From Candidatus Naiadarchaeum limnaeum (GTDB lineage: Archaea; Undinarchaeota; Undinarchaeia; Undinarchaeales; Naiadarchaeaceae): DNA of 25,738 nucleotides. The notes below the pieces were generated by a model. That model searched no databases and had not been told where the DNA came from. It saw nothing but the letters and a program-made list of their open reading frames with translations. The stretch's first letter is position 1. Each line of letters begins with the position of its first letter. The translations under genes were made by a program, and so were the position numbers. The DNA lies in contig DVAB01000012.1 of the NCBI GenBank assembly GCA_014189685.1, positions 1-25,738 of the forward strand. The letters run 5' to 3'. Shown piece after piece: positions 17,444 to 25,738 of the stretch.

Positions 17444-18937
17444 ATGATAAAGCACAAACGAAAAAAATACCTAAAGATAGGCAGAGAGATTGGATTTTCT
17501 TATATACTGGTTTTTCTCCAGTTCATAGTGGGCCCTCTTCTGATTGCGTTGCTCACAAGAATACTGGGGGCTGAGAAATATGGAATATATGCCCTGTTTT
17601 CTGTTTTCGTGGGGCTGTTCTCACTGATTCTCCAGCCTGGCTTATCACAGTACTTGATTACAAAATTGCCTTCCTATGAAGAAAAAAAATGGCCGCTAAT
17701 ATTTTTTTCAGTAATATCTTTTGAGGCGGTTTTCGTGTTTGCAATTCTTACTATTTTCTACTTCAGCCCACTTGGGGCAATGTTTCTGGATGTGAACAAA
17801 CTTGCGACATACAAATCCCTGCTTGCAGTAAGTATGGTAATAATTTTCTTCAGCACGATTGGTGGAATATATGACTATTATTATAGGGCAAAGCAGCGTA
17901 TAAATTTGGCGAATTTTATGGAATTCTTTAGGCTTAAAGGTTGGGCGCTCCCGCTTTTTGTGCTGTTTCTCTTGTTTAGGAGATTTGACCTGTTTCAAGT
18001 GTTTTTAGCATGGGGAATTTTTGTTGTGTTAACTTTGCTTATCTATTTCTGGAAAACTAAAAAAGAATTGTTTTATTTCATCAGGTCAGGCGGAGCCCAA
18101 TACAATCTTATCAAGCCAGCACTCATATTTGGTTTCCCGCTGATTTCTACAAGCATTCTTTCATGGGTTATAGCGGCAAGTGACCGCTATATTTTGAATT
18201 ACTTCACTTCTGCAAGCGTTGTTGGGATATACAGTCTGGCTTATTCTCTGCTTGGCACTTTGTTCACAATGGCAATTATTGTGAGCAGTGTTATTCTTCC
18301 TTACTTTTCAGAAGCATGGTGGAAGGATAAGAAGCAGTACAGTACTCTTCTGAATGCCTCGCTAAAATATGGACTTATTATGATGGCCCCGGGGCTGGTT
18401 GGAGCGTTTGTGCTCAGGAATGAGTTAATCACTCTCATATCTGGCCCGCAATATATTGCTGCCGCACCTGTGGTCAAGACACTGCTGCTCTACCCATTAT
18501 TTTTATTTTTAAGCAGCGCATTGCTACAGGTTCTTATGGTCAGAAATCAGAATGTGTTTGCGGGATTTGTTTTTCTTTTTGGCGGAATACTGAATATAGG
18601 ATTGAACATATTGCTCATCCCCCCCTATGGAATGCATGGCGCTGCAATTGCAACTGTTCTTAGCTATTTGCTCATGTTTTTGCTTACGCTATACAAAACA
18701 AGAGTTCACAAATTACTTGATTATAATTTCGTAAAATTGCCGCGGATTGTTCTTTCGGCGATAATTATGGGAGCGGCAATTTCATTTATTCATCCTACCC
18801 ATGCCCTTACCAAACTTATAACACTGGCAGTTGGGGCAGGTATTTATTTTGCCCTATTGTTCCTAACAAAAGTTTTTGATAAAAATGAGTTGAAATTAGT
18901 AAGGGGTGCCTTATTTTCATTTAAAAAAATTCTCTAA
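17444..18937 (+). CDS. Wzx-type polysaccharide flippase (MOP superfamily)
   Basis: 497 residues with about fourteen hydrophobic helices. It opens GFSYILVFLQFIVGPLLIALLTRILGAEKYGIYALFSVFVGLF, the standard Wzx/RfbX entry (helix 1, then ARxLGxxxYG-like turn). It has YDYYYRAKQR, SWVIAASDRYILNYFTSASVVGIYSLAYSLLG in the centre, and GGILNIGLNILLIPPYGMHGAAIAT near the end, all typical positions in the family. Such proteins move lipid-linked oligosaccharides across the membrane. It starts 11 bp after RadA, so it may be co-transcribed with the recombination genes although its role belongs with the glycan genes. Confidence 0.93.
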   Translation: MIKHKRKKYLKIGREIGFSYILVFLQFIVGPLLIALLTRILGAEKYGIYALFSVFVGLFSLILQPGLSQYLITKLPSYEEKKWPLIFFSVISFEAVFVFAILTIFYFSPLGAMFLDVNKLATYKSLLAVSMVIIFFSTIGGIYDYYYRAKQRINLANFMEFFRLKGWALPLFVLFLLFRRFDLFQVFLAWGIFVVLTLLIYFWKTKKELFYFIRSGGAQYNLIKPALIFGFPLISTSILSWVIAASDRYILNYFTSASVVGIYSLAYSLLGTLFTMAIIVSSVILPYFSEAWWKDKKQYSTLLNASLKYGLIMMAPGLVGAFVLRNELITLISGPQYIAAAPVVKTLLLYPLFLFLSSALLQVLMVRNQNVFAGFVFLFGGILNIGLNILLIPPYGMHGAAIATVLSYLLMFLLTLYKTRVHKLLDYNFVKLPRIVLSAIIMGAAISFIHPTHALTKLITLAVGAGIYFALLFLTKVFDKNELKLVRGALFSFKKIL

Positions 18938-18940
18938 AGA

Positions 18941-18955
18941 TTATATTTATATATT
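18941..18955 (+). promoter_or_regulatory. TATA box for the ferredoxin gene
   Basis: TTATATTTATATATT ends 25 nt before the ATG at 18980 and only 7 nt before the upstream in-frame ATG at 18962. The archaeal spacing rule favours the later ATG and a leaderless message. Confidence 0.5.
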
Positions 18956-18979
18956 GAGCTGATGACAGTAGTTAAAATA

Positions 18980-19267
18980 ATGGTCAGAAAAGCGTATGTT
19001 GATAAAGAAATTTGTATCGGGTGTAGTCTTTGCAATACTATATGCCCTGAAGTTTTCTTAGAAAGTAAACAAAATTCTGAATATGGCGGAGATTTTAAGT
19101 CTGACACTGTTAATACAGTAAATCACGAAGAGGTGACAGATAAAGTAGATGACGCAATACAGCAATGCCCTGTGCAGTGTATAAGCTGGCGAGATGAGAG
19201 TTCAGGAGGAGAGACAAAGCTAACAACTAAGAAAGCTACGCAAAAACACGGAGAGCCAAACCATTGA
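18980..19267 (+). CDS. 4Fe-4S ferredoxin
   Basis: 95 residues from the ATG at 18980; six more residues if the ATG at 18962 is used. The motif CIGCSLCNTICP gives the C-x2-C-x2-C-x3-C-P pattern, and a later CPVQCI supplies two more cysteines. This fits one 4Fe-4S cluster with a partly degenerate second site, as in archaeal single-cluster ferredoxins. Between them is a polar insertion (SEYGGDFKSDTVNTVNHEE) and after them a hydrophilic tail. It is 62 bp upstream of a B12-binding radical SAM gene. Supplying electrons to that enzyme is a reasonable inference, not shown. Confidence 0.88.
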   Translation: MVRKAYVDKEICIGCSLCNTICPEVFLESKQNSEYGGDFKSDTVNTVNHEEVTDKVDDAIQQCPVQCISWRDESSGGETKLTTKKATQKHGEPNH

Positions 19268-19307
19268 TCAGAGATAGATGGTAAAGCTTAAATATCATTA
19301 TTGAATA

Positions 19308-19327
19308 CTTTTAAAATATATTAAAAG
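19308..19327 (+). repeat. Perfect 7-bp inverted repeat just before the radical SAM start codon
   Basis: CTTTTAA (19308-19314) and TTAAAAG (19321-19327) flank AATATA and end 2 nt before the ATG at 19330. It could be an operator or a weak start-site hairpin. A TATA-like CTTAAATATC at 19287-19296 lies further upstream. Confidence 0.35.
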
Positions 19328-19329
19328 TT

Positions 19330-21339
19330 ATGGCGAAGGAACTAAAATTACAATTATTGCAGGAAGATGGTCAGAAAGGCCATGCCCATGAATGCGGCAC
19401 TGAATCATGCAACTGTGGCAGTCATACCTCTAAGTTAGGACAAGAGCCAAAAATTGAAAATATAACTGCAAGTAAGACTGAAAACATAGTTGAAACAAAA
19501 GCAAAAGCTAAAACTCTTAAAGTTGTTTTGTGTACTACTCCTTTAGATATCCAGCTAGACAGAGGATTTGGGGAATATCCGCGAATGCCAAAGGTTGCAA
19601 TTATGAGTATTTATCAGTTCCTCGAAGAAGCAGGATATGCCCCAGATTATTATGATATTGACACGCTTCTTCCTTCGGACAATGAAATGTTTGAGTATTT
19701 TAAATCTAGCCAGCCGGAAGTTGCAGGCATAAGTGCTGTTGTCTCATCCGCCTATGCTTCAGTTAAAAAGATTACAAAAATTATCAGAGAAGCCAGCCCT
19801 AATACACTTATTGTACTTGGCGGATATATGGGAGCATCTGCTAATATATTGCTGAGAAAAACCAATGTTGACCTTGTTGTGTTGGGAGACGGAGAAAATC
19901 CTTTAGTTTCTTTGTGTGACTATCTTGAGGATAATGGAAAAAAAATAAACAAAAAAGAATTATTAAAAATAAGAGGACTGGCCTTTCTGGACGAGGATGG
20001 CGAAATGGAACTTACAGGATACGCAGACACGAAACTGAAAAACGCAAACTATCTCCCAAACTACGATATTCATGCCAAAGGATGTCTAGGCAACTATGAA
20101 CTTATGGAAAAGGCCTTTTTCCGCGAAACTAAAGATTGCCCTGATTTTAATCACGATCCAAAAGCATTTGAGCCAGACAGAAATCCTAAAATGGTATCAC
20201 TTTTATCCACAAAAGGATGCGTTGCAAGATGCACATTTTGCCAGCGTTTCTCACGCGGATATTTTGTAGGCAATATAGAAGCAATGGATACCTATCTCAG
20301 AGATGTAAAAGAGAAATATAATGTTGGGGCTGTTCTTGTTGCTGATGAAAACTTTGGTTCTGACCAGAACTTTGCTTATGCATTGGCAGGATTAATGAAA
20401 AAACATGGTTTGATATGGTTTGCAGGAGGAGTTAGAGTTACTTCTGTTAAGCCAGAGGACATTCAATACTATAAAGACCATGGATGTGTTATGATAAGAT
20501 TTGGAGTTGAGAGCGGGTGCCAGAAAATTCTAGATGTTATGGAAAAAAAGATTACAGTGAAGAATCTCATGAATGCTTTTACAGCTTCTAGAAATGCTGG
20601 GCTTTATCCTGGTTTGGGGTTCTGCCTAGGTATGCCAGGAGAGACTAATGAAACAATTATGGAATCTGGAAGATTCATAGCAGAGGTAGCGTTAATGTAT
20701 GGTGTGCCCCCCCAGAATATTTTTACAGGATTTCCTTATGCAATGCCATTTCCAGGAACCCCGCTGTATCAATACGGGCAGTTGCAAGGTGTTATAGGAA
20801 CAAGTGTGGATGATGAAGAAAAATACCTTCTTCATGTATCCGATATTTATCCTGTAAAAGAAAATTACATAAACCTTAGCGGATCAAGTATGAAAGATGC
20901 CATATTCTGGAATTTCTTGGCAAGATATGAGGCTATGCGTCACTATTATAACAACCCTCTCTCAAAAGAGACGGTAAAAGGAAAGAAAAGAGAAACAACA
21001 GTAAAAGCTGCAATTTCACAGTTAACATTTAAAAATTTCCTGCGACATTTGTTTAATCCAATAACAACTTTAAACGCAATTCTAATCTGCAGTCCGTTAG
21101 TTGCAAAGATAAGCGGTCCGTGGTTCTATAGCCTGATGCGAAATCTGCTTTGGACAGAATACAAAATAAAAAATCTTTTTAGAAAGAAAAAAGACTTCTG
21201 TCCGGATAAAGTGGAATTGCCTAAAGACATTGATATATCAAAAGGCCTGAGACATATTGTTGAAAAACTTAAAGAAGCCCGTACAGGAACACAAACCAAA
21301 ACTGACAAGAATGTAGATATTCTTCTCCTAGGTAGATAA
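19330..21339 (+). CDS. B12-binding-domain radical SAM protein, 669 residues
   Basis: Residues 18-32 are a His/Cys-rich patch (GHAHECGTESCNCGSH), followed by a variable linker. A cobalamin-binding-type Rossmann domain spans about 63-240, with KVAIMSIYQFLEEAGYAPDYYDID and a VLGGYMGASAN...DLVVLGDGENPL block, but without the DxHxxG base-off motif. The radical SAM core starts at STKGCVARCTFCQ (C297, C301, C304, the CxxxCxxC motif). It continues with VLVADENFGSD, VMIRFGVESGCQKILDVMEKK and GFCLGMPGETNET. About 110 further residues at the C-terminus include a hydrophobic helix. This class performs radical methylations, ring changes or similar steps on lipids, cofactors or sugars; the substrate here is unknown. 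Confidence 0.88.
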   Translation: MAKELKLQLLQEDGQKGHAHECGTESCNCGSHTSKLGQEPKIENITASKTENIVETKAKAKTLKVVLCTTPLDIQLDRGFGEYPRMPKVAIMSIYQFLEEAGYAPDYYDIDTLLPSDNEMFEYFKSSQPEVAGISAVVSSAYASVKKITKIIREASPNTLIVLGGYMGASANILLRKTNVDLVVLGDGENPLVSLCDYLEDNGKKINKKELLKIRGLAFLDEDGEMELTGYADTKLKNANYLPNYDIHAKGCLGNYELMEKAFFRETKDCPDFNHDPKAFEPDRNPKMVSLLSTKGCVARCTFCQRFSRGYFVGNIEAMDTYLRDVKEKYNVGAVLVADENFGSDQNFAYALAGLMKKHGLIWFAGGVRVTSVKPEDIQYYKDHGCVMIRFGVESGCQKILDVMEKKITVKNLMNAFTASRNAGLYPGLGFCLGMPGETNETIMESGRFIAEVALMYGVPPQNIFTGFPYAMPFPGTPLYQYGQLQGVIGTSVDDEEKYLLHVSDIYPVKENYINLSGSSMKDAIFWNFLARYEAMRHYYNNPLSKETVKGKKRETTVKAAISQLTFKNFLRHLFNPITTLNAILICSPLVAKISGPWFYSLMRNLLWTEYKIKNLFRKKKDFCPDKVELPKDIDISKGLRHIVEKLKEARTGTQTKTDKNVDILLLGR

Positions 21340-21351
21340 TTTTTGTATTTT
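21340..21351 (+). terminator. T-rich archaeal-type terminator after the radical SAM gene
   Basis: TTTTTGTATTTT begins at the base after the TAA stop, in the 36-bp gap between two converging genes. Archaeal RNA polymerase terminates at such T runs without a hairpin. No matching A-rich tract serves the opposing gene. Confidence 0.4.
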
Positions 21352-21375
21352 CCTGGGCAGAAATGGTAGGACTGA

Positions 21376-22665
21376 TTATGTCAATAAATCTTTATTTTCT
21401 CTTAAAAATTTAGCACCAATGCGGATGTTATATTTGCTCAAAAAATTAGTGCCAATACAAGTATCTTTCCTATTAGTAGTGCTTGATTGAAAGATATCTC
21501 TGAATTTCTTTTGCAATTTTTCGTCCTCTTTTGTGTATTTATATTTTCCATTTAAATTAGCGTACATCTCCTTCGCGAGTTCATATATTTCTTTGGGGGT
21601 ATTTTCTACTGGCACTAATCCAGCTTCATTAAAATCTTTCGTGTAGGTATATCTGCCTCCCTCAAATCCGATCATTTCACTGAATTTGAGAAAACGCTTT
21701 TCTTTTTTAGACCATATTTTTTTAGGTATGTATATGCTGTCTTTTCTGATTGGAGGGTATATTACAGGAATTATATTTGCAAGAGCAATTGGCCGGTTAA
21801 AAATTGCAGCTATGGTAGTAAGCCCTGATGTGCTTACAAGTAAAAATTTGCATTTTGCCAGTAGGTAAATATCCAAAAAATCGGCCCTGAATTTAGAAGC
21901 ATAATCAATTATTCGTGGATTTTTAAAAGAAGGCAATTTTTTTGAAACAATGCTACCCATGCGAACAGCAAACCCGCCTTTTGATGTTATATACTGTGCC
22001 GCTTTCAGATAATTGTTTATATCACTGTCGCGATAATTATAATATTTCCATTCCTGTGGGTCGCTTGTTTGCTTTAAAAAAGTAGAATCGCGGTTATGGA
22101 AGCAGACAAACCATGAGCCTTCCTTCATTCCAATTTTTCTTAATAATTTTTTTCCATGCCTCTCTTCTTCGGGGGTAAATGAAAGGTTTGGTTTTATAGT
22201 AGAGAATTCGTGTGTGTAGTAAGTTTCAGCAAATAAAGGCTGATAAAATATTGTCCTACCAAATAGAGATTTGCTACTGAACACTGCGCGGAGAAATGTT
22301 TGAATATAATTCGGCTCAGAGATTTGCACTACTTTTAAGCGCCCTTTAAAAACTTCCAATAATTTACGCTTGAACATTTTAAACAGCTGCAGATTTGGCT
22401 GGTTTTTAGAAGCGATTGCAATATAAAATGCGCCTTTCTCTATTTTTATAGCGCCATTTTGGATACGCCTAAGGAATAAATCTGTATTCGCAGCTAGATG
22501 CCCAATTTTATCATCGATAAGCAAAAATAGTTTTAGAAATTTAAATGGTTTGATCAAATATAAAAATAAAATGAATGCAGCAGAAAATAAATTTACTGCG
22601 GTCCAAAAAAATATTTTTAATAGTCTAGAGCTTCCGTGCGTCTCAAGTAAAATCGGCGTGACCAT
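21376..22665 (-). CDS. TIGR04372-like glycosyltransferase
   Basis: 429 residues. A hydrophobic segment at about 16-46 probably anchors the protein to the membrane. The middle contains WFVCFHNRDSTFLKQ, YYNYRDSDINNYLKAAQYITSKGGFAVRMGS and LAKCKFLLVSTSGLTTIAAIFNRPIALANIIP, the conserved blocks I associate with the TIGR04372 glycosyltransferase family (GT-B-like, found in surface-glycan and flagellin-glycan clusters). The tail is polar. It is the last gene of a minus-strand operon behind the MDR dehydrogenase, 15 bp away. Donor and acceptor cannot be deduced. Confidence 0.78.
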   Translation of the reverse strand: MVTPILLETHGSSRLLKIFFWTAVNLFSAAFILFLYLIKPFKFLKLFLLIDDKIGHLAANTDLFLRRIQNGAIKIEKGAFYIAIASKNQPNLQLFKMFKRKLLEVFKGRLKVVQISEPNYIQTFLRAVFSSKSLFGRTIFYQPLFAETYYTHEFSTIKPNLSFTPEEERHGKKLLRKIGMKEGSWFVCFHNRDSTFLKQTSDPQEWKYYNYRDSDINNYLKAAQYITSKGGFAVRMGSIVSKKLPSFKNPRIIDYASKFRADFLDIYLLAKCKFLLVSTSGLTTIAAIFNRPIALANIIPVIYPPIRKDSIYIPKKIWSKKEKRFLKFSEMIGFEGGRYTYTKDFNEAGLVPVENTPKEIYELAKEMYANLNGKYKYTKEDEKLQKKFRDIFQSSTTNRKDTCIGTNFLSKYNIRIGAKFLRENKDLLT

Positions 22666-22680
22666 ATAATTTAATTAAAC

Positions 22681-23712
22681 CTAGAACTTGATTAAACCTC
22701 TTATTATTTCTCCGTTTTCAAGTTCGGCAAAAGCATTATTTATTTCCCCAAGTCCATATTTCTGTGTTATTAGCTTATCAAGTTTTAATTTTCCGGCAAG
22801 GTACATTTTTGCATAAAGGGGGATGTCTTTGTCCAGATTTGTCTCGCCTCCCCAGGTTCCAAATATTTTCTTGCCCTTGATTAAATCAAAGGGGTCTATT
22901 GAAATTTTTTCGCCTTTTGCCAAATTGCCTGCAATTACTGCAATCCCTTTATCATGAAGAGACTCAAAAGCCGTTTCCATTGCTTTTCCATTTCCAGAAC
23001 ATTCAACAGAATAGTCAACACACAGCCCGCCTGTGAGTTCTTTTATTTTAGTTGCAGCATCCTCGTTTTTTGTATTTATTGTGTGGGTTGCCCCGAGCTC
23101 TTTTGCAAACTCTAATTTATGCTCATAAATATCCACTGCAATTATCTTTGCACACCCGAAGAATTTCGCTGCAAGAACAGCGCTTGAACCAATCCCTCCA
23201 ATACCAAAAATTGCTATTGAGCTACCTTTTTTGACCCTGAGTATATTCTTAATTATACCAGCTCCTGTTGGAAAAGCACAGCCTAAAAGTGCTGCAATAT
23301 CAGCAGGAATTTTTTTTGAAATTTTAACTAATCGATTTTCTGAAATAACTGAAAAATTGCTAAAAGTTGAAATTGCACCTGAATTTATAGTCTGGCTGTT
23401 CTTTTTGTACTTACAGGATGGCGCGTCAATGCCGCTGCCTTTTATCCAAGTTAAAACAACAAAATCACCTTTCTTAAACTTTTTAACCCCTGGGCCCACC
23501 TTTTCAACAATTCCTGAGCCTTCATGCCCCAATAAATGAGGGAGATATTTATCTTCGCCTTTTCTTCCTTTTATTTCATTTAACTGACTCCCACACAATC
23601 CACTATAGAGAATCTTTACAAGAACCTGCCCCCTTTCTAATTCTGGAATTTCCAAATCGTCAACAACAAGCTCTTTTCCTATTTCATACAAAACCGCAGC
23701 TTTGGTTTTCAT
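22681..23712 (-). CDS. Zinc-type MDR alcohol dehydrogenase
   Basis: 343 residues. The GroES-like N-terminal domain has GLCGSQLNEIKG (C40) and LLGHEGSGIVE (H63, E64), and C144 in LLGCAFPTGAGI completes a likely catalytic zinc site. The nucleotide-binding fold has IFGIGGIGSSAVLAA (167-181) followed by acidic VDIYEHKLEFAKELGA, favouring NAD. The lobe that usually holds four cysteines for a structural zinc contains only C99, so the structural zinc is missing. In this operon, between a radical SAM enzyme and a glycosyltransferase, it more likely oxidises or reduces a sugar-nucleotide intermediate than simple alcohols. A TATA-like element overlapping the stop of the upstream gene could give it its own transcript. 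Confidence 0.87.
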   Translation of the reverse strand: MKTKAAVLYEIGKELVVDDLEIPELERGQVLVKILYSGLCGSQLNEIKGRKGEDKYLPHLLGHEGSGIVEKVGPGVKKFKKGDFVVLTWIKGSGIDAPSCKYKKNSQTINSGAISTFSNFSVISENRLVKISKKIPADIAALLGCAFPTGAGIIKNILRVKKGSSIAIFGIGGIGSSAVLAAKFFGCAKIIAVDIYEHKLEFAKELGATHTINTKNEDAATKIKELTGGLCVDYSVECSGNGKAMETAFESLHDKGIAVIAGNLAKGEKISIDPFDLIKGKKIFGTWGGETNLDKDIPLYAKMYLAGKLKLDKLITQKYGLGEINNAFAELENGEIIRGLIKF

Positions 23713-23741
23713 TTTGGGTATAATAAAAAAAGGCAGCTAAA

Positions 23742-25193
23742 TTATTTTACAACATTAACCCCTAATTTGTGCCGTGTCTCCTTGCGCCAATTTTCTAACT
23801 CTTCCATGCTAATGCCCTGGATCCTTGCAATAGCTTCCTTTCTTTCTTTTGATCTAAAATTTATTCGATCCCATTCAAAGGCGCGCAATATCTGCAATTC
23901 CTCTGCCAGGAATTCATCAGTGGATATAGCACCATGTGTATAACCAACACTGGCAACTTTTTCATTGAAATCTTCGGGCAGGTATCCCTCCTCAATGCAT
24001 CGCTTTGCAAAATCTGTATTTGGAAGCGGTGTTGCTATATGGAAATTTACCAAGTCAACGTCCAGTTTTTCAGCATATGCAAAAGTATCTCTTATCTGCT
24101 CCCAAGTCTCGCCAGGAAATCCTATTATGAAATTAGCAATAATTTCAAGGCCTTTTTTCCTTGCTATAGATAGAATACCTGGCACTCTCGCAAGATTTAC
24201 TGGTTTTTTAATTATTTTGTTTAGAACATCTTGATTGCCAGATTCTATTGATACAGTAATTTGATAGCAACCACTTTTTTTCATAAGATCGAGCAACTCT
24301 TCATCGAGCAGCCAAACAATCAAATTAACACATTTCCAGGTGAGATCGTATTTGCGTTCTATCAGACCTTTCATAATATCTATTACACGCTTGCGGTTGG
24401 ATAAGAAATGGTCATCCAAAAAAATTACTTCTTTTATACCCTGTTTATACATCACGTCTATCTCTTTAAGGACATTTTCAGCGCTCCTCACTCTGACCTC
24501 GCTACCACTAATAACTGGTACTGAGCAGAAAGTACACCTGTATGAGCATCCTCTGGAGGTTACTGTTAGTGCATAAGGGAGCCTTCTGGCGCACAAACCC
24601 TGTGCATATTTAAGTTGCTGATTGCCATAGTCCATTATATTGAGGTTTCCATAATCGGCAAAAGGCATGGAATTTAAATCCTCAATGTGGCCCTCTTGCC
24701 GAGATATCATGGCTTTGCCATTTTCATAATAAGCTAGTCCTTTGATTTCAGATAGATTATGCCTAGAGTTGTTGAGCTCATTTAACAGTTTTGGAAAAGC
24801 TAGTTCTCCTTCACCCATTACCCAATAATTAACATTCTTATCTTTCATTGCGGTCCCTATTGCTACTGTTGGCAAGACACCGCCCTCTATTACTATTGCA
24901 TTAGGCAAGGCAGTCTTGATTAAAGAAGTCATATGCTCGATAGTCTTTACGTATTCAGTGGAATTGGTGCCGAGAGTTACAGCATCAGCATTAGATTTCC
25001 TAAGTGAATCTAAGATTTCCTCATCACTTAGGTTGTCAAAATTGGGGTCAAAAAGTTCAGTCTTGAAACTGTCCTTTATGCATGCGTTTAGTACGGCCAA
25101 AGAATAAGGGTACATTTTCCAGGTTCTCTTTTCAGACCACGAATAATTTGGCTGCGTCAACAAGACTTTCCTTATTTTTTTGGTTTCAGTCAT
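23742..25193 (-). CDS. B12-binding-domain radical SAM protein, 483 residues
   Basis: An N-terminal cobalamin-binding-type domain spans about 8-190, with KVLLTQPNYSWS, NAIVIEGGVLPTVAIGTAM and NYWVMGEGELAFPKLL; the DxHxxG motif is absent. The radical SAM core begins TVTSRGCSYRCTFCSVP (C216, C220, C223). It continues with EVIFLDDHFLSNRKRVIDIM, YQITVSIESGNQDVLNKIIKK and NFIIGFPGETWEQIRDT, and a C-terminal helical region follows. It differs from the 669-residue relative in lacking the His/Cys-rich N-terminus and most of the C-terminal extension. It starts 8 nt after a SAM-methyltransferase gene with a purine-rich AAGAGAAAG before the ATG, indicating an operon. Substrate unknown; a sugar or lipid precursor is suggested by context. 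Confidence 0.9.
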   Translation of the reverse strand: MTETKKIRKVLLTQPNYSWSEKRTWKMYPYSLAVLNACIKDSFKTELFDPNFDNLSDEEILDSLRKSNADAVTLGTNSTEYVKTIEHMTSLIKTALPNAIVIEGGVLPTVAIGTAMKDKNVNYWVMGEGELAFPKLLNELNNSRHNLSEIKGLAYYENGKAMISRQEGHIEDLNSMPFADYGNLNIMDYGNQQLKYAQGLCARRLPYALTVTSRGCSYRCTFCSVPVISGSEVRVRSAENVLKEIDVMYKQGIKEVIFLDDHFLSNRKRVIDIMKGLIERKYDLTWKCVNLIVWLLDEELLDLMKKSGCYQITVSIESGNQDVLNKIIKKPVNLARVPGILSIARKKGLEIIANFIIGFPGETWEQIRDTFAYAEKLDVDLVNFHIATPLPNTDFAKRCIEEGYLPEDFNEKVASVGYTHGAISTDEFLAEELQILRAFEWDRINFRSKERKEAIARIQGISMEELENWRKETRHKLGVNVVK

Positions 25194-25201
25194 CTTTCTC
25201 T

Positions 25202-25738
25202 TTACTCAGGTATGAACCAGTAGTAATCTCCTACGTAGTTTATAAACTTAAATACCTTTTCCCATAGACCCACATGCATATAGGTTTCTGCAGTAAGATT
25301 CCATTTTAAAAGCTTTTTCCTTTCTTCTTCATTTCTGTAAGCGTCTACTGTTATAAAAGCGTGTTTTCCAATGCGCTGTATTTCTTTTAAGGCCTGGCAA
25401 CAATCATCAAACTTTAAATTGTGAATAGTGTTTATTGAAATTACAAGGTCAAATGACTTATCTAGAAACTCTGAGAGGTCTTTTGCGTTACCAACACTTA
25501 TAAACGGCTTTACATCTTCAATTGAATTTTCTATTGCATATTCCGATATATCAATTCCCCTGACTGTAATTCCTGGCAGTGCTTTCCTAAAATCATGCAG
25601 CATGAATCCTTTGCCACAACCAACATCTAGTATTTTGCTTTTTTTTGTAAGACCATAATGCTTTATGAAATCTTTTACAGCCCCACTCCAGAACCGCTCA
25701 TCATAAGAATACTCGCCATAACCCTGGTTTCTAGTTCC
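25202..25738 (-). CDS. SAM-dependent methyltransferase, 5' end outside window
   Basis: The frame is open to the right edge, giving 178 residues without the start. Motif I is ILDVGCGKGFML, which lies upstream of the first internal Met (25603), so the gene clearly extends to the edge. Before it is NQGYGEYSYDERFWSG, common in class I methyltransferases. Later motifs are VRGIDISEYAIENS (motif II, ribose-binding acidic residue), DLVISINTIHNL (motif IV) and KEIQRIGKHAFITVD. It heads the minus-strand operon with the radical SAM enzyme, dehydrogenase and glycosyltransferase. The acceptor (sugar, lipid or small molecule) is unknown. Confidence 0.9.
   Translation of the reverse strand, partial: GTRNQGYGEYSYDERFWSGAVKDFIKHYGLTKKSKILDVGCGKGFMLHDFRKALPGITVRGIDISEYAIENSIEDVKPFISVGNAKDLSEFLDKSFDLVISINTIHNLKFDDCCQALKEIQRIGKHAFITVDAYRNEEERKKLLKWNLTAETYMHVGLWEKVFKFINYVGDYYWFIPE

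Follow-up and report, generated by a model that had tools for sequence, protein, structure and literature searches.

The stretch of DNA analysed here, the window, is the entire contig C46 (25,738 bases) of the archaeon Candidatus Naiadarchaeum limnaeum, whose genome is 0.98 Mb in size and 98% complete and whose phylum is represented by six genomes in the collection. Two gene runs converge near the end of this contig, and the one on the minus strand stops with the contig inside a methyltransferase gene, MTase1. We suggest that a nucleotide-sugar cassette of bacterial type, about 13 genes long and shared by horizontal transfer, has its 3' end in the minus-strand genes and works as proposed below, and we put the probability of this reading at a little over one half (about 0.55). 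The product of the cassette is probably an unusual, carbon-branched sugar of the cell surface. An earlier prediction, made from the letters of the window alone, had named seven open reading frames (ORFs) here. All seven were recovered with the same sizes and strands, and Pfam and NCBIfam, whose domain matches to them far exceed chance, agree with the assignments.

The minus-strand genes and their continuation on contig C50

In the direction of transcription, the minus-strand run begins with MTase1, a class I S-adenosylmethionine (SAM) methyltransferase, of which the window holds the C-terminal 178 of 219 amino acids (25202..25738); the remainder is found at the start of contig C50. There follow rSAM483, a radical SAM protein of 483 amino acids with a B12-binding fold (23742..25193, CxxxCxxC at residue 216), a zinc-type medium-chain dehydrogenase/reductase (MDR) of 343 amino acids recognised by Pfam (22681..23712), and a 429-amino-acid protein of the TIGR04372 family (21376..22665, 1.4e-65). 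The last scores 220.6 bits against an NCBIfam cut-off of 45, which places it within the family, and by this assignment it is a predicted glycosyltransferase. An AlphaFold (AF2) model of it, built from three sequences, reached a predicted local distance difference test score (pLDDT) of 46.7.

The terminal 82 bases of the window align, in the same orientation, with bases 2-83 of C50, and joining the two contigs yields a single uninterrupted MTase1 ORF of 219 amino acids. MTase1 relatives from other phyla span the join unbroken, with 60% identity over residues 3-219 in one case and 64% over residues 1-218 in another. The tip of C50 (L071:1-60) has a poly-C run and mismatches, the pattern of a low-quality contig end, and is likely a sequencing error that split the operon over two contigs. 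A self-contained operon of four genes was abandoned once this join was found: the four genes named in the original prediction are real, but they do not form a unit of their own, being the tail of about 13 genes that continue on C50.

Beyond MTase1, C50 carries nine further genes on the same strand, transcribed in the order HldE-SDR337-E1alpha-E1beta-SDR335-SDR278-MTase2-TktN-TktC; across the join come MTase1, rSAM483, MDR and the TIGR04372 glycosyltransferase. HldE is a nucleotidyltransferase and kinase that scores 168.9 bits against NCBIfam PRK11316, short of the cut-off of 521, with both domains present in reversed order. SDR337 is an NAD-epimerase, SDR335 is 4,6-dehydratase-like and the E1 pair is pyruvate-dehydrogenase-like. 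On the far side of HldE, archaeal genes resume. We consider contamination of the assembly unlikely because C46 and C50 both carry archaeal housekeeping genes, namely RadA on C46 (460 bits against an NCBIfam cut-off of 361) and, on C50, the archaeal phosphoesterase TIGR00024, also above its cut-off.

A transketolase pyrimidine domain is found in four proteins of the host genome. Contig C21 has a complete pyruvate dehydrogenase unit, consisting of E1alpha, E1beta, an E2 with lipoyl and E3-binding domains and a LipA-like radical SAM protein, and contig C9 has a split transketolase flanked by ribulose-phosphate epimerase (Rpe) and transaldolase. The E1 pair of C50 is 33% and 41% identical to that of C21, and its transketolase pair is 38% and 30% identical to that of C9. 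No E2 or lipoyl genes were found in the C50 cassette, so the E1 pair lacks the company that marks a pyruvate dehydrogenase complex; E1alpha and E1beta without E2 inside a cluster of keto-sugar genes is instead the gene context of the alphaKADH2 type. Because they are extra copies of low identity, lie without E2 and are embedded among sugar genes, the E1 and transketolase genes of C50 look, from their sequences and setting, dedicated to the cassette.

Recurrence of the cassette in archaea and bacteria

MTase1 is present in six of 74 genomes of the WOR-1 phylum and nine of 371 genomes of the Nanoarchaeota phylum, and we compared the neighbourhoods of 16 MTase1 loci, the plasmid pDCAR1 included. 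The archaeal matches all came from the search of the Nanoarchaeota phylum; a set of 393 further archaeal genomes, chosen as relatives, gave no MTase1 (E 1e-20), and the five other genomes of the host phylum gave no TIGR04372 match above the cut-off, no MTase1 and no rSAM669 (the larger radical SAM protein of the plus strand) at the limits used. A search of phage-record proteins with MTase1 returned weak matches only. In control loci, taken from these genomes and from others, only generic or housekeeping-level homologs were present. Nanoarchaeota, WOR-1 bacteria and a plasmid of the Desulfovibrio type all have versions of the cassette.

The original prediction had proposed checking whether the four minus-strand genes stay together in relatives, and for most of them they do. 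An MDR 45-57% identical to that of the window lies on the MTase1 strand in 10 of the 16 loci, immediately downstream of MTase1 in nine of those 10 (at a gap of 14-138 bases in eight and 445 bases in one), so that MTase1-MDR is the steadiest unit of the cassette. The glycosyltransferase has four relatives of useful similarity, three of them 39-44% identical (L024, L025 and genome G553) and one, on pDCAR1, 31% identical. MTase1 lies within 7 kb of the TIGR04372 relative in three of the four (binomial P 1.5e-4, given MTase1 in 15 of 445 genomes). Among 72,556 plasmid records, the glycosyltransferase matches a single one, which also holds the sole strong MTase1 match. It is rSAM483 that does not keep this company, being found in one relative only.

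In the MDR family, three residues bind the catalytic zinc and a lobe with four cysteines binds the structural zinc. All 11 cassette members retain the three catalytic-zinc ligands and have lost the structural-zinc Cys4 lobe; the cassette MDRs are thus a coherent subfamily, which speaks for a common function.

In a tree of MTase1, the protein of the window belongs to a group of six, with full support, in which archaea and bacteria are mixed, as expected after horizontal transfer. Its five closest partners all have E1beta (53-59%) and MDR beside MTase1; SDR337 (49-63%) is found in most of these cassettes and SDR335 (55-62%) in three, and HldE and Tkt recur among them, on contigs several of which are truncated. 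The Nanoarchaeota genome G722 has a cluster with a fused E1alpha-E1beta (61% and 58%), MDR (57%), MTase1 (64%), SDR337 (63%), GmhA and HldE. Genes of the GmhA/SIS type are also seen in the relatives at L024, L089, L129, L130, L132, L133, L135 and L137, and together with HldE they hint at a heptose as the base sugar.

The radical SAM proteins, the plus-strand run and the proposed pathway

A Radical_SAM domain with the CxxxCxxC motif and a Pfam match to the B12-binding domain are found in both rSAM483 and rSAM669, and both lie outside the characterised families, with NCBIfam scores far under every cut-off, in line with the original prediction. Against the HpnJ, BchE and Sden_1168/PhpK P-methyltransferase families of NCBIfam, rSAM483 scores 180/578, 141/481, 186/575 and 140/600 (bits/cut-off); the scores of rSAM669 also fall under these cut-offs, and all are lower than those of rSAM483. 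For the AprD4 family NF033070, with a cut-off of 500 bits, the two proteins reach 103.2 and 33.3 bits, respectively. An AF2 model of rSAM483, based on 31 relatives encoded on viral contigs, has a pLDDT of 91.5, and its best fold match is AprD4 (PDB 6fd2; Z 33.7, root-mean-square deviation 2.7 Å over 408 residues), followed by MgmA, TsrM, OxsB and CysS at Z 28-30. AprD4 is also its best sequence match in the PDB, at 20% identity. The B12-binding-type fold of AprD4 can be without cobalamin. On the strength of the model, we think that rSAM483 most likely acts as an AprD4-like dehydratase that would take one hydroxyl off a vicinal diol. With the NADPH-dependent reductase AprD3 as its partner, the radical SAM diol dehydratase AprD4 works on an amino sugar (PMC5461906), and by analogy the position of rSAM483, between MTase1 and MDR and directly followed by the dehydrogenase gene, suits an AprD4/AprD3-like pair.

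The ortholog of rSAM483 lies in the G722 cassette (L136:18381-19847) and is 60% identical over 98% of the length. Because just this one relative has it and most cassettes do without, rSAM483 is an accessory step of the cassette. Its nearest homolog in the host phylum is a protein of 771 amino acids in genome G002, which belongs to the same order as the host (L035:6246-8561; 34-36%), a nucleotidyltransferase-like domain fused to a B12-type radical SAM protein, which sits in a heptose-type gene cluster. Relatives of 37-38% identity are carried by two IMG/VR contigs (L141 and L142) that have the same order and further shared ORFs, with a glycosyltransferase-like ORF, judged by eye, upstream in one of them and phage-like genes downstream; these are phage-borne B12-radical SAM glycan modules.

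On the plus strand, the run comprises a Wzx/MOP-family flippase of 497 amino acids (17444..18937; Polysacc_synt 6e-19), of which another member of the host order has a 41% identical homolog (L074), a single-cluster 4Fe-4S ferredoxin of 101 amino acids (18962..19267; Fer4_13 2.9e-11) and rSAM669, a radical SAM protein of 669 amino acids with a B12-binding fold (19330..21339; CxxxCxxC at residue 297). From RadA through Wzx and ferredoxin to rSAM669 the spacings are 11, 24 and 62 bases, and 36 bases separate this run from the convergent minus-strand run; the neighbours of the seven-gene region are archaeal replication and repair genes, including an RPA-like protein as well as RadA. Wzx is a probable exporter of a lipid-linked sugar, to judge from its family, and the ferredoxin is a possible electron donor to the radical SAM enzymes. 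No ortholog of rSAM669 was found in 148 other archaeal genomes, which gave generic matches of 24-34% only. Its C-terminal 170 or so amino acids are an extra segment with hydrophobic stretches and no Pfam match.

That the plus-strand run belongs to the same pathway, as first proposed, is not borne out: it is convergent with the cassette and starts 11 bases after radA, and only G553 is similar, with a radical SAM protein that is not orthologous. In that genome the order is MTase1-MDR-SDR-methyltransferase-SDR-TIGR04372, followed by a B12-radical SAM protein of 717 amino acids, which is no ortholog of rSAM669, and a ferredoxin (L115:15033-15272) 51% identical to that of the window. It is the only relative with a ferredoxin and a large B12-radical SAM protein beside MTase1, MDR and TIGR04372, an arrangement that is suggestive of a link between the two strands. 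The G553 radical SAM protein (locus L115:12879-15272) has a full-length homolog in the host genome, of 709 amino acids and 28% identity, at one end of contig C43 (L032:95-2224). The host has a second glycan island on contig C17 (L027), by eye a NeuB-type nonulosonate synthesis cluster, which encodes two further radical SAM proteins of the B12 type, 473 and 486 amino acids long.

From the gene content, the contig join, the second copies of E1 and transketolase and the linkage in relatives, all obtained directly, and from the modelled fold of rSAM483, we infer a sugar, a set of chemical steps and their order, in which Wzx, ferredoxin and rSAM669 may share. HldE would phosphorylate and nucleotidylate a sugar, probably heptose-like, and SDR335 would generate a keto sugar from it. 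The stand-alone E1alpha/E1beta, the split transketolase or both would then attach a two-carbon branch to the ketone; MTase1 and MTase2 would methylate the sugar, rSAM483 would carry out a radical step, most likely an AprD4-like removal of one hydroxyl of a vicinal diol, and the ketones so formed would be reduced by the MDR and the SDRs. Transfer of the sugar would fall to the TIGR04372 enzyme, with the nearby Wzx as a possible flippase for the product. The gene set therefore fits the machinery for an unusual surface sugar that had been predicted, but the radical SAM enzymes are not its sole key chemistry: the main chemistry probably lies with the thiamine diphosphate (ThDP)-dependent carboligases on C50.

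Several observations weigh against this reading. The split transketolase is present in just one of the five closest relatives, G554, and three others have instead an ORF of about 590 amino acids of the TPP_enzyme type (two Pfam-confirmed). Such ORFs, with TPP_enzyme N, M and C domains, lie in bacterial and archaeal cassettes at L091:12759-14540, L127:4589-6358 and L089:8993-10768 and may offer a third, YerE-like way of branching. No structure of the sugar is known. The orthologs of rSAM483 are as few as described, its cluster motif is CxxxCxxC and that of AprD4 is CxxxCxxxC, and methyltransferases follow AprD4 closely in fold. The overlap of C46 with C50, finally, is only 87% identical, as it might be if the two contigs were not adjacent, the methyltransferase start on C50 were a paralog and the minus-strand operon had four genes only. 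We regard that as highly improbable, since the mismatches include the evident poly-C error right at the tip of C50, the joined ORF of 219 amino acids aligns without a break to relatives of 54-64% identity, and the genes beside MTase1 in relatives are those present on C50.

The alternatives that concern the chemistry deserve more weight. It is possible, if doubtful, that rSAM483 is no dehydratase and is a cobalamin-dependent C-methyltransferase placing a methyl branch on the sugar. The Pfam match to the B12-binding domain, the nearness in fold to MgmA, TsrM, OxsB and CysS and the P- and C-methyltransferases among its NCBIfam neighbours would suit such a role, but AprD4, which acts on an amino sugar, is the top match in both fold and PDB sequence, and the adjoining dehydrogenase gene again recalls AprD4/AprD3. 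We think it unlikely that the product is an unbranched higher-carbon sugar of the ADP- or CDP-heptose type, for which the transketolase would supply sedoheptulose 7-phosphate, the E1 pair would give an acetyl group or have some other role, and the methyltransferases, radical SAM enzyme and MDR would merely decorate the heptose. HldE and the GmhA/SIS genes of many relatives speak for such a product; however, transketolase and transaldolase are already encoded elsewhere in the genome, an E2-less E1alpha/E1beta is hard to fit although E1beta is in all five closest cassettes, and no GmhA was seen in the portions of the host genome read, where no exhaustive search was made. Quite improbable, in our judgement, is that the radical SAM enzymes modify the membrane anchor, an isoprenoid or lipid headgroup, with rSAM669 and the ferredoxin acting as a lipid enzyme. 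The hydrophobic C-terminal extension of rSAM669 and its place behind a flippase, with a ferredoxin, are in keeping with this idea, but no lipid radical SAM family gives a score near any cut-off and rSAM483 travels with sugar genes. Within the branched-sugar reading we tentatively propose a pathway shared by small archaea and WOR-1-type bacteria that has not been described before, in which the E1 pair, the split transketolase or both add a two-carbon branch to a perhaps heptose-based sugar and an AprD4-like deoxygenation, paired with the MDR that lacks structural zinc, follows; its product would be the first ThDP-branched sugar of an archaeal glycan.

Two other loci may be mentioned. Judged by eye, genome G002 has a ThDP decarboxylase in two pieces and a phosphoenolpyruvate-mutase-like ORF beside a heptose cluster (L074:12701-15378), perhaps phosphonate genes. 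The cassette clusters are also resembled in style by a sugar locus on plasmid 1 of Lawsonia intracellularis (L076), where genes for two radical SAM proteins lie with those for several methyltransferases and with SIS, HAD and GHMP-kinase genes.

Comparison with known systems

The literature on TIGR04372 and on transketolase, E1 and surface-polysaccharide clusters yielded no described pathway with this gene set, in agreement with the original prediction; as far as found, the building blocks are known and their combination in an archaeon is not. Branching of keto sugars by E1-type enzymes and by split transketolases has been described (PMC12247030, PMC4753412). Transfer of an acetyl group from pyruvate to a keto sugar has been proposed for E1alpha/beta pairs and, for aldgamycin, is backed by knockouts and feeding (PMC12247030, PMC4753412), and a 2025 review places the E1-type sugar-branching enzymes in antibiotics (PMC12247030). 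Like these alphaKADH2 enzymes (AviB1/AviB2, Pau11/Pau12, aldgamycin and KbDH-alpha/beta; PMC4753412, PMC12247030), the E1 pair of the cassette has no E2 and lies beside nucleotide-sugar dehydratase-like SDRs and ketoreductases. The known cases named in these two papers belong to bacterial antibiotics, whereas the cassette, known from its genes alone, is found in an archaeon and in WOR-1-type bacteria and comes with a glycosyltransferase and HldE.

The split transketolases of miharamycin and amipurimycin likewise have separate TktN and TktC genes in a sugar-modification cluster (PMC12247030). For this group the addition of a hydroxyacetyl unit has been proposed, and its 13 putative, ketone-accepting members are all from streptomycetes, none of them tested in vitro (PMC12247030); those of the cassette are archaeal and WOR-1 bacterial. 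Branching of the YerE type in O-antigens (yersiniose, erwiniose; PMC12247030) also relies on a ThDP-dependent carboligase encoded in a surface-polysaccharide locus, and the relatives G441 and G722 have TPP_enzyme N/M/C proteins, although none was seen on C46 or in the part of C50 read. With AprD4/AprD3 (PDB 6fd2; PMC5461906), rSAM483 shares the fold and the adjacent dehydrogenase gene and differs in its low identity, its cluster motif and a score of 103 bits where the family asks for 500.

Plasmid pDCAR1 of Solidesulfovibrio carbinolicus has TktC, MTase1 (42%), a radical SAM protein and, further along, a TIGR04372 glycosyltransferase in one run, as in the cassette. Its radical SAM protein, of about 355 amino acids, is not an ortholog of rSAM483, the run lies beside pseudaminic-acid genes, and no MDR was found.

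What is new, in comparison with all of these, is that archaea have such a cassette, that it combines E1-type enzymes and split transketolase with an AprD4-like radical SAM protein, and that it recurs across archaeal and bacterial phyla. If our interpretation is right, tiny-genome archaea may gain elaborate surface sugars through mix-and-match cassettes shared with bacteria, natural and expressible enzyme sets for ThDP-dependent sugar branching would be at hand, and a branching chemistry known from antibiotics and streptomycetes would extend to the surface glycans of poorly known microbes.

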